Part shown: positions 5,889 through 27,995 of the stretch, piece by piece
How the letters are laid out: each line of letters starts with the position of its first letter
Numbering within the stretch: position 1 is the first letter of the stretch
Origin: a virus
Direction: 5' to 3' (one strand)
Virus record (IMG/VR): IMGVR_UViG_3300045776_000069
Span: 1-34,276 of that record
Length of the DNA: 34,276 bases
Notes under the pieces: generated by a model
The model's input: only the letters and a program-made list of their open reading frames with translations
The model's database searches: none
Told to the model about the DNA's origin: nothing
Position numbers and translations under genes: made by a program

Positions 5889-5960
5889 GGTAGGTCTCCT
5901 GGGCACGGGGGGAGTGGCTGATGCCGCGCCCCGCGCGGACAGACCTAATCATTGACAGGA

Positions 5961-10078: not shown

Positions 10079-10464
10079 CTGCGTTTCTCTATTTGCGCCT
10101 GGATGCGCTCGAAGCCGACGCGGAGATTGACGACGTCGTTTGACATACCGTCGACTTTTACCCGAAGCGAATCCACTTCGGTCTTGTTGGTGTCGATCTG
10201 GTATTGCTTTAGCTTCTCCGAAGCGATCAGGGTTGAAGCCTGGGCACCAATTGCCTCAAGCTTGGCGATGCGTTCGCCATGCGCGTCGTATTCATCGATC
10301 TTATTGACCGTGAACTTGACCGCTCCAAAAAGGGTCATTCCGATGGTCATGGCGACACCGAGGTTTTTCCAGCCTTCGGTGTGTTCAAGCCATGACCATG
10401 GAGATTTCTTCTCGTCGGTGACTGCTCCCCGCCCTGAAGTCTGGGGCTTCCCAGATTCAGGCAT
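10075..10464 (-). CDS. Membrane coiled-coil protein whose 5' end is supplied by the TnpB element
   Basis: As now read it is a 129-residue protein. The first 15 or 16 residues (MPESGKPQTSGRGAV) are encoded by the last bases of tnpB and the right end of the element. The native part begins TDEKKSPWSWLEHTEG, followed by one transmembrane segment (about 35-52, LGVAMTIGMTLFGAVKF) and a long coiled coil to the C-terminus. AGGAGG (10470-10475) lies five bases before the ATG at 10464. Removing the element restores ATG ATG ACC GAC GAG AAG, i.e. a start M-M-T-D-E-K with AAGG upstream. Topology resembles small phage membrane/coiled-coil proteins of the spanin or holin-accessory kind, but the function is unknown. 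Confidence 0.72.
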   Translation of the reverse strand: MPESGKPQTSGRGAVTDEKKSPWSWLEHTEGWKNLGVAMTIGMTLFGAVKFTVNKIDEYDAHGERIAKLEAIGAQASTLIASEKLKQYQIDTNKTEVDSLRVKVDGMSNDVVNLRVGFERIQAQIEKRR

Positions 10465-10540
10465 GGGTTCCTCCTAGCGTTGCCAGTCCGCAACGGAGAA
10501 TATTGAGCGCGGCGTTTTGGTCCCGGTCGTGTTCGGTTCC
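10402..10540 (-). ncRNA. Predicted omega RNA (reRNA) of the TnpB element, with guide
   Basis: In TnpB systems the guide RNA comprises the 3' part of tnpB, the right-end hairpin and about 16 bases of flanking DNA. Here the hairpin GCCCC..GGGG (10427-10446) is followed by GAGCAGTCAC and then the flank CGACGAGAAGAAATCT (10417 down to 10402), which would be the guide. The 5' limit is a guess. The scaffold overlaps both the tnpB C-terminus and the new start of the 129-aa gene. Confidence 0.5.
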
Positions 10541-11564
10541 GCAGTCGCTACAGACCCAATCTCTCTTATTCAAATCGGCTCTACCTTTCGGACTACTGAC
10601 GGGGTTACACCCGCAGCTCGAACAGATTTGAGTTGTATATCGCTCTGAAACCTCAATCGCGCTCCCACCATTCCTGATGGACTTGTATGAAAGCATCCGC
10701 TTGAAGTCCGACCAGCCCGCATCGAGCGAACTCTTTGCGAAGCGTGTCTGAGCAATCTTCTTCGGGCTCACGTCGCCGATGACGATAAACCCAAACTCTT
10801 TGGTGATCTTCGCCGAAGTCTTATGCAAATGATCCTTGCGACGATTGGCGACCTTTGCGTGGATCGCGCGAACGCGCTTCGTCTTTCGAGCGCGCTGGAC
10901 CGTGCCGAGTTTCGTTTCGCTGGCACGATAGAAGCGCGGCGCTTCGATCTTTTCGCCGGTTGAAAGCGCCGCCAGCGTATGCAGACCAAGGTCGATCCCG
11001 ACGCGGGCGACGGGCGCACTTACCGCGCACTCGACTTCAACCGGGATATTCAGATACCAGCGACCTTTCGCGTCGGCGTTGAATGACCCTGCGCCAATCT
11101 TGACGCCCACCTTCAATTCCTCGCGAAGGTGCATGGTCCGATAGGTGACGCCGCGAAATTTGAAATTCACGCCGTCGAAAGTGACGTGGCCCGTATTGAA
11201 GGGAACCCAGCCAAGCGACTTCTTGCCGCGCCAGCGCAGCCACGCCTTCTTGTTCGTGCGGCGCGAATCAACATAGAAGTCGCACACCCGTTTGATCGTA
11301 TGGGCGTGGATATTCAATTCTTTTGACGCGCCCGCTGTAAGTTTTTGCAGGTCGAATGAAGAAAGCCATTTGCGGTGCGCCCGAGCTGCCTTTTGTTGAG
11401 TCTCATTGCAATAATTCCAAACAAAATTAACGGCGCGCGCCTGCCGATTGAGATCGGACACGTGCTTGTCGCGAAGTCTGAATTTATAAACAAGGCGCAT
11501 TTTGTTCCTCTGGTGCTCGCTATCCCCGCCCTGAAGGACGGGGCTTGCGCTCGCAAAATTATCG
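10418..11564 (-). mobile_element. TnpB-only IS200/IS605-like element
   Basis: About 1.15 kb carrying tnpB and no tnpA. The left end has an imperfect palindrome CCCCGTCCTTCAGGGCGGGG (11524-11543) and the right end a related one (10427-10446) ending GGGGAGCAGTCAC. The bases outside the ends rejoin to a continuous start of the neighbouring gene (ATGATGAC plus CGACGAG). The exact boundary is ambiguous over ACCGA, which occurs at both junctions. This fits single-strand transposition without target duplication next to a short motif such as ATGAC, or a 5-base duplication by another route. A TnpA in trans would be needed for movement. Confidence 0.82.
10457..11500 (-). CDS. tnpB: TnpB RNA-guided nuclease (IS605 OrfB family)
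   Basis: A 347-residue protein when started at ATG 11500 (MRLVYKFRLR), which has AGAGGAA seven to eight bases upstream. RuvC-I is GIDLGLHTLAALS (Asp170). The bridging helix region is RRKDHLHKTS. RuvC-II reads FIVIGDVSPKKI, so the usual Glu of the ExL motif is Gly242, followed by Asp243. The zinc ribbon has CSSCG (from 293) and CSDCG. RuvC-III is HDRDQNAALNI (Asp325/Asp327). A Glu at 286 in VSERYTTQICSSCG may replace the missing one. The frame also runs back, in phase, to the ATGs of the interrupted phage gene (11572/11569). TnpB uses an RNA made from the element's right end to cut DNA next to a short motif. Confidence 0.9.
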   Translation of the reverse strand: MRLVYKFRLRDKHVSDLNRQARAVNFVWNYCNETQQKAARAHRKWLSSFDLQKLTAGASKELNIHAHTIKRVCDFYVDSRRTNKKAWLRWRGKKSLGWVPFNTGHVTFDGVNFKFRGVTYRTMHLREELKVGVKIGAGSFNADAKGRWYLNIPVEVECAVSAPVARVGIDLGLHTLAALSTGEKIEAPRFYRASETKLGTVQRARKTKRVRAIHAKVANRRKDHLHKTSAKITKEFGFIVIGDVSPKKIAQTRFAKSSLDAGWSDFKRMLSYKSIRNGGSAIEVSERYTTQICSSCGCNPVSSPKGRADLNKRDWVCSDCGTEHDRDQNAALNILRCGLATLGGTHA

Positions 11565-13963: not shown

Positions 13964-14034
13964 GGGAGGGGTTCCTTCTGTTGAGCCGACCTTTCGGAAG
14001 GTTCGAGCCCCGCCCGTAACCATCGATTACGCAA

Positions 14035-14088
14035 ATGTTAAGGTTAATAGCAAAAAAAGTCAAGAAAAGTAGCAGACCGTCCCAGAAT
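14035..14088 (-). promoter_or_regulatory. Late promoter P3 (major capsid)
   Basis: TTGACT at 14058-14063 and TAACAT at 14035-14040 (minus strand) are 17 bases apart, with the same upstream element as P1. Over 55 bp P3 and P1 differ at one base in the spacer. The transcript has a leader of about 65 bases that contains a small hairpin (ACCTT-TCGG-AAGGT, near 13989-14003). Confidence 0.82.
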
Positions 14089-23114: not shown

Positions 23115-23435
23115 TTAGCCGTGCTTGACGCGCGTGAACCAGCAAGTGCCGTCTGCTTCGCCGACTTTCTTGATGACCGAGAGATAGCCTCCAGCCGGAA
23201 CCACGACGATGATGCCGTTATAGTGGTCGGCGACCGGGGCGTCTGAGGCAGCGACGGCGTCTACAGCAGCTGAGTCAACATGAACGTGGAAGTTTACGTC
23301 TCCCCACACACGCACACGCCAGCTCTGCGGCGGGTCCTGCACGTTACCATCGGCGACACCGGCGTCGGGCTGGAAGGTATAGGCAGTCGACGTCACCGCA
23401 TGCGACGTCGTGCCTAGAAGGACAAATGCGCCCAT
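23115..23435 (-). CDS. Beta-rich virion protein of unknown function
   Basis: A 106-residue protein (MGAFVLLGTTSHAVTSTAYT). The pattern WRVRVWGDVNFHVHVDSAAV followed by GIIVVVPAGGYLSVIKKVG suggests a compact beta barrel. Proteins of this size and pattern occur near fibre genes, often as trimeric spikes or decoration. It lies 12 bases upstream of the small fibre gene and 12 bases after the VCBS gene. Confidence 0.62.
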   Translation of the reverse strand: MGAFVLLGTTSHAVTSTAYTFQPDAGVADGNVQDPPQSWRVRVWGDVNFHVHVDSAAVDAVAASDAPVADHYNGIIVVVPAGGYLSVIKKVGEADGTCWFTRVKHG

Positions 23436-26216: not shown

Positions 26217-26780
26217 TCAGCGGTTCTTATGCACGCGGGTGATGCGTTCGACGGTGAAGACCTCGGTAGTGCTGCCGACCGGGTAGAAGGCGCTCTCGAA
26301 CTCAATACCAGCGGCTGCGGCTTCGTCTTCGTCTTCGTCTTCGTCTTCGTCTTCGTCAGGGGTAGGGGCAGCCTTCGGCTCTTTCGAGCAGCCATCCGCG
26401 CAAACAGGGTCTGGCTCGCCGGCATTCACGGTGCCGCCAACTTCCACGAATTTCAGGTCGTCGAGGATCGGGTTGTGTTTGAAAATTTTACTGAGCAAGT
26501 CAGCAAAGGTGCTGGTTAGCGGAGGCGGCTGGTCAATAAGTTCGAAACCGCACTCGCACAGGTTGGCTTCGATTTCCTCGATCTGCTCATTCAGCTCGGT
26601 GATCAGCGCCGTGCGGGCGCGTTGAACAAACCAGTTTCCGGCTTCAACGCTAGGGCCGAACAGGTCTACGAAATCCTGTGATTCTGAATCATCTTCCAGA
26701 CGGTCTCGCAGCGCCGTGAGGCACCAGTGTTCATCCAGTATGAACACGGCAGAGGAAGGGTCATATCCACCGATGGGCAT
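26217..26780 (-). CDS. Hypothetical protein with Asp-Glu repeat
   Basis: A 187-residue acidic protein (MPIGGYDPSSAVFILDEHWC). The first two thirds are helical (RARTALITELNEQIEEIEAN). A short Cys-containing segment (PDPVCADGCSKEP) precedes the (Asp-Glu) run at about 142-153, encoded by six copies of a hexanucleotide. The C-terminus is beta-rich and basic (EVFTVERITRVHKNR). Promoter P6 lies about 60-80 bases upstream. Function unknown. Confidence 0.65.
   Translation of the reverse strand: MPIGGYDPSSAVFILDEHWCLTALRDRLEDDSESQDFVDLFGPSVEAGNWFVQRARTALITELNEQIEEIEANLCECGFELIDQPPPLTSTFADLLSKIFKHNPILDDLKFVEVGGTVNAGEPDPVCADGCSKEPKAAPTPDEDEDEDEDEDEAAAAGIEFESAFYPVGSTTEVFTVERITRVHKNR
26321..26356 (-). 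repeat. Hexanucleotide microsatellite, (CTTCGT)6 on the plus strand
   Basis: Six perfect copies encode alternating Asp-Glu in the acidic protein. Copy number changes would lengthen or shorten the acidic run in steps of two residues without breaking the frame. Confidence 0.9.
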
Positions 26781-26818: not shown

Positions 26819-26897
26819 GCGAGGGCCTGCGTTGTCACGAACAATGGCAGCGAAAAAAGGTGGTGTCAAGAAAAATAGCAAGAAAAATAGCAATTAT
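26819..26897. repeat. 79-bp direct repeat, copy 1 (contains promoter P6)
   Basis: Identical base for base to 27416-27494. Starts GCGAGGGCCTGCGTTGTCAC and ends at AGCAATTAT. The pair flanks the orphan transposon end and the LigA-related gene. Confidence 0.92.
26841..26897 (-). promoter_or_regulatory. Late promoter P6 (acidic-repeat gene)
   Basis: TTGACA at 26864-26869 and CATTGT at 26841-26846 (minus strand) with a 17-base spacer. The upstream box is doubled: TTGCTATTTTTC occurs twice in tandem before the -35. It precedes the gene starting at 26780. Confidence 0.7.
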
Positions 26898-26975
26898 GGC
26901 GTGAGGCGAAATCCTCGTGTTCGTGCAGTTGCCTTGAAGCGAGAAGCCCCCGCCTTCAGGCGGGGGAGTAGTCAC
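26898..26975 (+). pseudogene. Orphan IS200/IS605-like right end with tnpB C-terminal relic
   Basis: The perfect hairpin CCCCCGCC-TTCA-GGCGGGGG (26947-26966) is followed by GAGTAGTCAC, matching the right end of the intact TnpB element (GAGCAGTCAC). Reading the plus strand into the hairpin gives ALKREAPAFRRG, typical of tnpB C-termini. No upstream tnpB body is left; the 79-bp repeat begins directly before it. It is either a decayed element or a minimal guide-RNA end that could be used in trans. Confidence 0.65.
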
Positions 26976-27015
26976 GGAACGTCAGTTCAGGTTTTGGAGG
27001 TGTTTCGACCCTAGC

Positions 27016-27336
27016 TCATGCCGACATGGGCTTGAGGTGTCTTGCGACCAAATCAGCGTAATTGTCCCGTATTGCCCTGGGATATGCGTCCTCTGAGAAC
27101 TCCAGGCTGCTCGTGATCTCCAGGCTCTCTTTTTCCATGAGCGCCTTATATGGATGGTCAATCTCGTCCCAATGCTTTGCGATGAATTTGGCAAGCCAAT
27201 CATACGTCCCATCGGTGAGGATCGGATTGTCGCAGCGGTAGTAGCCATAGCTGCCCATAAGCATCCAGGTCACTGCCACATTGATGTCTCTCTCGACTTT
27301 GCGCTTGCAGAGGTCGTCGAGCAGATTATTCGGCAT
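27016..27336 (-). CDS. DNA ligase LigA-related protein (N-terminal Ia-domain-like)
   Basis: A 106-residue protein from ATG 27336 (MPNNLLDDLCKRKVERDINV), with GAAAGG ten bases upstream; ATG 27375 is an alternative that lacks a ribosome site. The segment YYRCDNPILTDGTYDWLAKF resembles the YY..d.P..sDaeYD.L motif of the N-terminal Ia domain of NAD-dependent ligases, and HPYKALMEKESL follows. The adenylation and OB domains are absent, so it cannot be a ligase itself. Short proteins of this kind occur in phages with unknown role. It lies between two 79-bp repeats and is driven by P7. Confidence 0.68.
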   Translation of the reverse strand: MPNNLLDDLCKRKVERDINVAVTWMLMGSYGYYRCDNPILTDGTYDWLAKFIAKHWDEIDHPYKALMEKESLEITSSLEFSEDAYPRAIRDNYADLVARHLKPMSA

Positions 27337-27415
27337 GGATTTTAAACCTTTCAAGATAGGATTGAAGTTCTTCATGTGAAAAGCCCGGCGCAATGGCCAG
27401 GCTGTTTGGTTCGAA

Positions 27416-27494
27416 GCGAGGGCCTGCGTTGTCACGAACAATGGCAGCGAAAAAAGGTGGTGTCAAGAAAAATAGCAAGAAAAATAGCAATTAT
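27416..27494. repeat. 79-bp direct repeat, copy 2 (contains promoter P7)
   Basis: Identical to 26819-26897. It overlaps the region immediately after the stop of the lipoprotein gene by a few bases (27491-27494). Confidence 0.92.
27438..27494 (-). promoter_or_regulatory. Late promoter P7 (LigA-related gene)
   Basis: Same sequence as P6: TTGACA at 27461-27466 and CATTGT at 27438-27443, 17-base spacer, doubled TTGCTATTTTTC box. It precedes the LigA-related gene. Confidence 0.7.
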
Positions 27495-27706
27495 TTGTCG
27501 AAATGCGTGCAAGGCTGTCGCACCTGGTCAGGGTCGACCATGCCGGCTGGGTCATAGACCGGCACCGTGTTGGTGCATTCCGCCTGGATGCGAATCTTCA
27601 CATTATAGGGCGGACCGAGCACAAAGGTGCAGGCGCTGATCCCGAGTGTGATGGCCAGAATCAGCAGAGTGAAGAACGCAGCTCTGGCCATCACATAGAG
27701 TGTCAC
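27491..27706 (-). CDS. Small lipoprotein
   Basis: A 71-residue protein with a signal peptide and lipobox (MARAAFFTLLILAITLGISA followed by Cys). The mature part is about 45 residues, with two more Cys (AECTN, RQPCTHF) that could form a disulfide. Start: GTG 27706 with AAGGG eight bases upstream, or ATG 27691. The GTG overlaps the stop of a 17-codon mini frame as GTGA. The outer-membrane lipoprotein topology resembles small outer spanins or superinfection-exclusion lipoproteins. No family signature decides between them. Confidence 0.65.
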   Translation of the reverse strand: MTLYVMARAAFFTLLILAITLGISACTFVLGPPYNVKIRIQAECTNTVPVYDPAGMVDPDQVRQPCTHFDK

Positions 27707-27848
27707 AAGCACAACCCTTGTATCAACCCAGCTCTGGCCATCACATATAGTGTCACCTGCACAACCCTTTCAGTGCGCCGCCTAGTATCAACCCAGCTCT
27801 GGCCAACGGCACATGTAATACCACCTGCACAACCCTTTCAGTGCGCTA
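27691..27848 (-). repeat. Tandem partial duplications of a gene start, with coupled mini frames
   Basis: About 65-base units carrying AAGGGTTGTGCAGGTG and then TGGCCAGAGCTG are repeated two to three times upstream of the lipoprotein gene. Each contains a possible Shine-Dalgarno site, a GTG and a short frame: 27753-27824 (23 codons, MVLHVPLARAGLILGGALKG then LCR) and 27703-27756 (17 codons, MTLYVMARAGLIQGLCL). Each stop overlaps the next GTG as GTGA. The unit looks copied from the lipoprotein 5' end and the end of the 49-aa gene (EGLCR). Whether the mini frames are translated is unknown. Confidence 0.72.
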
Positions 27849-27995
27849 CCTGCATAGCCCTTCCAGGCAGTTGTCACCAACATAGCGCACCACCTGACAG
27901 CCAGCGACCGTGGCTCCAACAATCAGCAATGCGCCGAGCGTGAACCAGTAGGAAAAAGATGGGCCTTGGGGTTTGTAGCCTGGGTCAGTTTCCAT
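27846..27995 (-). CDS. Small membrane or lipoprotein-like protein
   Basis: A 49-residue protein (METDPGYKPQGPSFSYWFTL, then a hydrophobic helix GALLIVGATVAGCQVV, ending EGLCR). GGAG lies eight bases before the ATG at 27995. A Cys after TVAG gives a weak lipobox, but the basic n-region of a signal peptide is missing, so a single-pass membrane protein is more likely. First gene after the portal. Its C-terminal codons are partly copied in the repeats that follow. Confidence 0.62.
   Translation of the reverse strand: METDPGYKPQGPSFSYWFTLGALLIVGATVAGCQVVRYVGDNCLEGLCR

Follow-up and report, generated by a model that had tools for sequence, protein, structure and literature searches.

Short C-terminal remnants of IS1341-type genes have been described in Haloquadratum, where the IS605-type remnants and the PATEs both reflect internal loss that leaves terminal or C-terminal pieces of an element (PMC3119063). 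In the omegaRNA of the ISDra2 TnpB, which comprises stems 1-4 and a pseudoknot, stem 1, stem 2, stem 3a and the pseudoknot constitute the protein-bound core, and stem 3b is removable (Trim2) (PMC10097598). An alternative-Glu arrangement of TnpB has also been described (PMC10711439).

Here we analyzed a virus sequence of 34,276 nucleotides (IMG/VR record IMGVR_UViG_3300045776_000069, hereafter the window), in which a preliminary description had noticed an orphan TnpB-type right end with a C-terminal relic at 26898-26985. Judged from its sequence, the stretch 26898-26975 is very probably the dead 3' relic of a second TnpB element, of a different clade from the intact one in the window. It belongs to the already known kind of C-terminal IS1341-type remnants and, as in Haloquadratum, internal loss has left a terminal piece; unlike the PATEs, which keep both ends, it has a right end only (PMC3119063).

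The 3' end of a tnpB gene at 26898-26975

The features of the relic are as follows:

26898-26975, plus strand: last 78 bases of an IS1341-like tnpB element, by homology to Methylovirgula pHY1, with the C-terminal codons of tnpB, a truncated omegaRNA scaffold, the right-end hairpin and a TCAC end
26898-26933, plus strand: surviving tnpB codons (GVRRNPRVRAVA), 12 of 12 residues shared with the TnpB tail of Methylovirgula
26947-26966, plus strand: right-end hairpin (stem 4) of 8 bp, by folding
26966-26975, plus strand: GAGTAGTCAC right end, within which GTC is the pseudoknot 3' strand
26976-26991, plus strand: guide-position sequence GGAACGTCAGTTCAGG, adjoining TCAC, flank of the former insertion

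A blastn search with positions 26898-26991 matched the 3' end of tnpB on plasmid pHY1 of Methylovirgula sp. HY1 (91% identity over 88 columns, E 3e-25), a member of the Beijerinckiaceae. With a 701-base query the start of the match was unchanged, exactly at 26898, where the left edge of the relic reads GGCGTGAGG. Identity collapses on both flanks (4 of 20 bases directly upstream of 26898 and 15 of 40 after TCAC), so the shared stretch is 26898-26975; the left edge given in the preliminary description thus holds, but the remnant ends at 26975 and not at 26985. In Methylovirgula the equivalent stretch is coding sequence plus right end, with a TnpB tail that reads RRGVRRNPRVRAVASEARSPRLQAGE up to the stop. 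This shows that the orphan right end comes from the 3' end of a genuine tnpB gene, and the option of a dead relic, raised earlier, gains support from this homology. The frame preceding the hairpin had been read as a usual tnpB C-terminus, which is correct for GVRRNPRVRAVA but not for what follows: the window retains GVRRNPRVRAVA letter for letter and then lacks 1 base, so that ALKREAPAFRRG ('LKREAPAFRRG') results from reading the hairpin in a shifted frame. The true tail of the relic's family is different, the Methylovirgula relative ending in RAVASEARSPRLQAGE before the stop.

The homology to the tnpB 3' end includes the right-end hairpin, as in an IS200/IS605 remnant, and the hairpin followed by GAGTAGTCAC is real: its sister GAGCAGTCAC lies at 10418-10427 on the minus strand beside the intact tnpB. 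The GAGYAGTCAC pattern occurs twice in the window versus 0.05 times expected from shuffles, so it is not there by chance, and positions 26936-26975, which include the 8-bp GC hairpin at 26947-26966, fold well below shuffles (z -3.8). The body of the element is absent at the relic, as had been noted: the single TnpB C-terminal domain in the window is that of the intact gene. No Y1 transposase (TnpA) was found in the window, no left end of the relic's family was found there beyond chance, and an Rfam search gave no match at the relic.

The element on pHY1 (NZ_CP073765.1: 232991-233663), whose last 78-79 bases are 91-94% identical to the relic, has the same hairpin and GAGTAGTCAC end but, unlike the relic, retains a complete omegaRNA core and a TnpB frame of 222 aa, which is itself N-truncated. 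The 3' architecture and conserved TnpB tail recur in the IMG/VR elements L083-L088 (70-77% amino acid identity to the Methylovirgula TnpB), which, unlike the relic, have a complete tnpB of approximately 390-405 codons, a full scaffold and mostly GTAGTTCAC ends. Among 397 genomes of the Methylovirgula family, the 78-mer had a full-length match only in Methylovirgula itself, and the Methylovirgula TnpB gave only its self-match against 397 genomes of the order (E<=1e-40). The relic's own hairpin form was absent from IMG/VR and GTDB contigs when searched with exact and degenerate right-end patterns; a looser pattern hit 7 virus contigs and 15 genome contigs. Right ends of this type without adjacent tnpB, possibly further relics, occur at 190-220 of L075 (a Rhodobacteraceae MAG) and in L070 (Methanothrix harundinacea). 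Against decay of the relic, its right-end hairpin and TCAC end are intact, letter for letter as in Methylovirgula, which suggests either that the decay is recent or that the right end is conserved.

The relic and the intact TnpB element belong to different clades

The intact element (10418-11554) includes 2 features that bear on the origin of the relic:

10457-11500, minus strand: intact TnpB, of another clade than the relic, with alternative RuvC-II Glu
10418-10449, minus strand: right-end hairpin of the intact element and GAGCAGTCAC (the latter at 10418-10427)

The Methylovirgula TnpB, which represents the relic's parent type, is 36% identical to the intact TnpB of the window and carries the canonical RuvC-II Glu (IAVEDL). 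In the intact TnpB and 54 relatives, a Gly occupies the canonical Glu position and an invariant Glu lies 6 residues before the zinc finger (55/55 aligned), which matches the published alternative-Glu arrangement (PMC10711439). Because the parent proteins share 36% identity and differ in active-site type, their sequences indicate that the relic is not descended from the TnpB at 10457-11500. Proteins of this alternative-Glu type, with a DLG motif, are common in virus contigs.

The right ends had been called closely related, and this applies to the last ~36 bases (83% identity), but upstream of these the 2 elements differ. The intact element shares with the relic the type of right-end hairpin and an AGYAGTCAC end; it differs in having TGAC at its left end, an upstream scaffold unrelated in sequence, and a protein of another clade. 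TGAC, the motif proposed to adjoin targets of the guide, belongs to the left ends of the intact family; in the relic's family, most left ends stand after TTATC or TTAAC. The GTCAC end common to both families is due to the pseudoknot, whose GTC strand has its partner, GAC or GGC, in the stem-1 loop of each.

Mini-elements without tnpB exist in the family of the intact element. In L059 (8443-8560) left and right ends lie ~120 bases apart after TGAC, and in L060 (3730-3782 and 13284-13327) the left end is fused to the right end, with one hairpin, again after TGAC. We considered whether the locus is itself a mobile tnpB-less mini-element of the PATE or MITE kind, with both ends and moved by TnpA in trans. 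Such elements are of a described kind (PMC3119063), they occur in these relatives, and TTAT stands directly left of 26898. However, this reading is highly unlikely: a left-end hairpin is missing, the left edge at 26898 is homologous to the interior of the tnpB coding sequence, and the near-terminal palindromes that PATEs have at both ends are absent. PATEs also come in several copies, whereas the window has one, and no tnpB-less copy was found in the phage, plasmid, IMG/VR and genome sets; the sole other copy in the DNA and genome sets searched is the tnpB-linked one of Methylovirgula. In addition, the window has no TnpA, and the base after TTAT is G instead of the C of TTATC. The TTAT/26898 boundary was likewise rejected as a primary target junction of an insertion sequence because the homology there is to the inside of the element and the TAM would have G as its fifth base.

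The relic lies at the edge of a repeat-flanked segment

The following features surround the relic:

26819-26897, minus strand: 79-base direct repeat, copy 1, promoter-like with TTGACA, 100% identical to copy 2
27416-27494, minus strand: 79-base direct repeat, copy 2, promoter-like, overlapping the stop codon of gene 27491-27712
27016-27345, minus strand: gene for an Nlig-Ia-like protein within repeat-flanked 26898-27415, with homologues in Rhodobacter, Rhizobium and Pseudomonas phages

The left edge of the relic coincides with the end of the perfect repeat, which carries GCTATTTTTCTTGACA on the minus strand. Minus-strand genes have this motif upstream at 5960, 8468, 14056, 18541 and 23885 as well, and its recurrence makes the 79-base repeat look like a phage promoter. 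The motif GTCAAGAAAAATAGC (minus strand GCTATTTTTCTTGAC), which precedes minus-strand genes at 5960, 8468, 14034-14088, 18541, 23885, 26819 and 27416, is probably the phage's own promoter family. When one repeat copy and 26898-27415 are dropped, the end of gene 27491-27712 runs directly into the leader of the gene at 26780. The simplest reading of this arrangement suggests a cassette between duplicated promoters, namely 26898-27415, which holds one phage-type gene and, at its edge, the relic. Two further repeats lie nearby: 3-4 imperfect direct repeats of ~45-50 bases (CAGCTCTGGCCATCACATATAGTGTCACCTGCACAACCCTTTCAG) between two small genes at 27675-27860, and a short CTTCGT tandem repeat at 26312-26357 that encodes a Glu-Asp run in gene 26217-26780.

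A search for related phages with a full element at this position had been proposed. No relative that covers the site was found: the neighbouring protein retrieved none, the portal led to distant ones only, and a near-identical contig ends at window position 23259, before the relic. Since no allele lacking the relic or 26898-27415 was found among the relatives searched, the order of events is one that we infer. A misassembly, in which the 79-base repeats misjoined a relic-bearing stretch, would account for a junction exactly at the edge of a perfect repeat, and the near-identical contig stops short of the site. Nevertheless, it is very improbable; the repeat is shorter than usual reads, and promoter-like repeats are typical of this phage's intergenic regions.

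The history of the dead relic is probably as follows. A Methylovirgula-type TnpB element (canonical Glu, target/TAM about TTATC) once stood beside DNA that is now in the phage, all but its last 78 bases were lost, and a recombination junction at 26898 now joins the remnant to the phage promoter repeat. The location between two identical 79-base promoter repeats suggests a single small cassette that consists of the remnant, its 3' flank and the neighbouring gene (26898-27415) and that arrived or was rearranged as a unit; the relic was probably carried in with this gene. The intact TnpB at 10457-11500 has its own, different scaffold.

The relic lacks half of the omegaRNA scaffold of its family

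IMG/VR contains 22 relatives of the Methylovirgula TnpB. In all, 18 3' ends, that of Methylovirgula among them, were aligned, and five helices were set by eye from these 18 sequences and then counted. The family core consists of stem 1 with a pseudoknot strand, stem 2, stem 3a and an inner hairpin, with strong covariation, and is laid out as in ISDra2 (PMC10097598). In the five helices, 91% of cells were paired versus 68.5% in shuffles, a percentage that leans towards the structure because this was read from the same sequences; the two-sided changes (104 cells versus 31 in shuffles) are the stronger evidence. When partners were slid by 1-3 columns as a control, 32-48% were paired. The 3-base pseudoknot, which links the loop of stem 1 to positions -5 to -3, was paired in 53/54 cells, in GGC/GTC, GAT/ATC and GAA/TTC versions. 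Parts of this scaffold that remain at the relic are:

26902-26917, plus strand: inner hairpin (helix 5), by alignment the equivalent of ISDra2 stem 3b, which is dispensable in ISDra2 (PMC10097598)
26928-26933, plus strand: stem 3a 3' strand GTTGCC (helix 3), unpartnered, 5' strand absent
26939-26943, plus strand: stem 2 3' strand GCGAG (helix 2), unpartnered, 5' strand absent

The relic begins at alignment column 50, a breakpoint that comes after every 5' strand of stems 1, 2 and 3a. Stem 3b, stem 4 and TCAC are retained, stems 2 and 3a are reduced to their 3' strands, and stem 1 and the pseudoknot partner (GGC in the stem 1 loop) are lost; unlike the ISDra2 omegaRNA, the relic has no tracrRNA-like 5' half (PMC10097598). 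No replacement strands for stem 2 or stem 3a were found in register in the phage sequence upstream, and stem 1, the pseudoknot, stem 2 and stem 3a cannot form at the relic. A covariance model of the family scored 21.9 bits there, with the 5' half forced into broken pairs, versus 110.2 bits for Methylovirgula. By analogy with the family structure, an RNA from the remnant would be unable to form the TnpB-binding core and so should guide no TnpB. Having lost half of the scaffold that TnpB needs, the relic is most likely a dead fossil rather than a working guide-RNA gene.

The preliminary description had alternatively proposed a minimal guide-RNA locus, whose 78-base RNA with guide GGAACGTCAGTTCAGG would be loaded in trans into the intact TnpB. 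The last 36 bases do resemble the intact right end, with a common GTC pseudoknot strand and TCAC end, and solo elements that retain a full scaffold occur in other virus contigs with a TnpB. Still, this proposal is scarcely plausible given the missing strands of its own family's scaffold, the different clade of the intact TnpB (36% identity) and a search that found no plus-strand promoter-like site near the relic. The search for targets of the guide that had been recommended also gave no match: within the window GGAACGTCAGTTCAGG matches only itself when up to 3 mismatches are allowed, its 20-mer has no match in IMG/VR, and its 16-mer has none in 397 Methylovirgula-family genomes. As the sets searched may not include the phage's host, these negatives are weak evidence against function. 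The record does not contain a cognate TnpB of the relic's clade, its only TnpB being the 36% identical protein of alternative-Glu type; a cognate TnpB may be encoded by the host. It is extremely unlikely that the 78-base RNA acts as a natural crRNA (stem 4 plus guide) that retargets a TnpB to GGAACGTCAGTTCAGG, with a tracrRNA-like 5' half from another RNA such as the omegaRNA of the intact element. The probability that the hairpin has nothing to do with TnpB and is a plain transcription terminator or a product of chance is negligible because, although this is a strong GC hairpin between genes, no T run follows the stem on either strand, a terminator scan did not find it, and the 78-base tnpB homology reaches far beyond it and already refutes chance.

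A live solitary guide-RNA gene and a relic can thus be separated without experiments, by working out the covarying scaffold for the TnpB clade to which the orphan belongs and checking the orphan for both strands of every helix. As the relic does not, the guide-in-trans reading can be dropped. Applied to other virus contigs, the same test picks out scaffold-keeping solo elements beside a TnpB gene. Such tnpB-less elements of ~300 bases lie at 775-1088 and 1-127 of L120 (G778, IMGVR_UViG_3300047195_000698) and at 2497-2793 of G777 (IMGVR_UViG_3300037264_009889). They have a hairpin at the left and at the right end, 3' flanks (guides) of three different sequences, and an apparently complete scaffold, with stem 1 and its GGC loop, a CGG/CCG stem 2 and a long stem 3. 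Each of the 2 contigs encodes one full-length TnpB elsewhere (frames of 412-426 codons) with a similar right end, and by sequence they present the arrangement that had been imagined for the window, a predicted solo guide plus a TnpB in trans.
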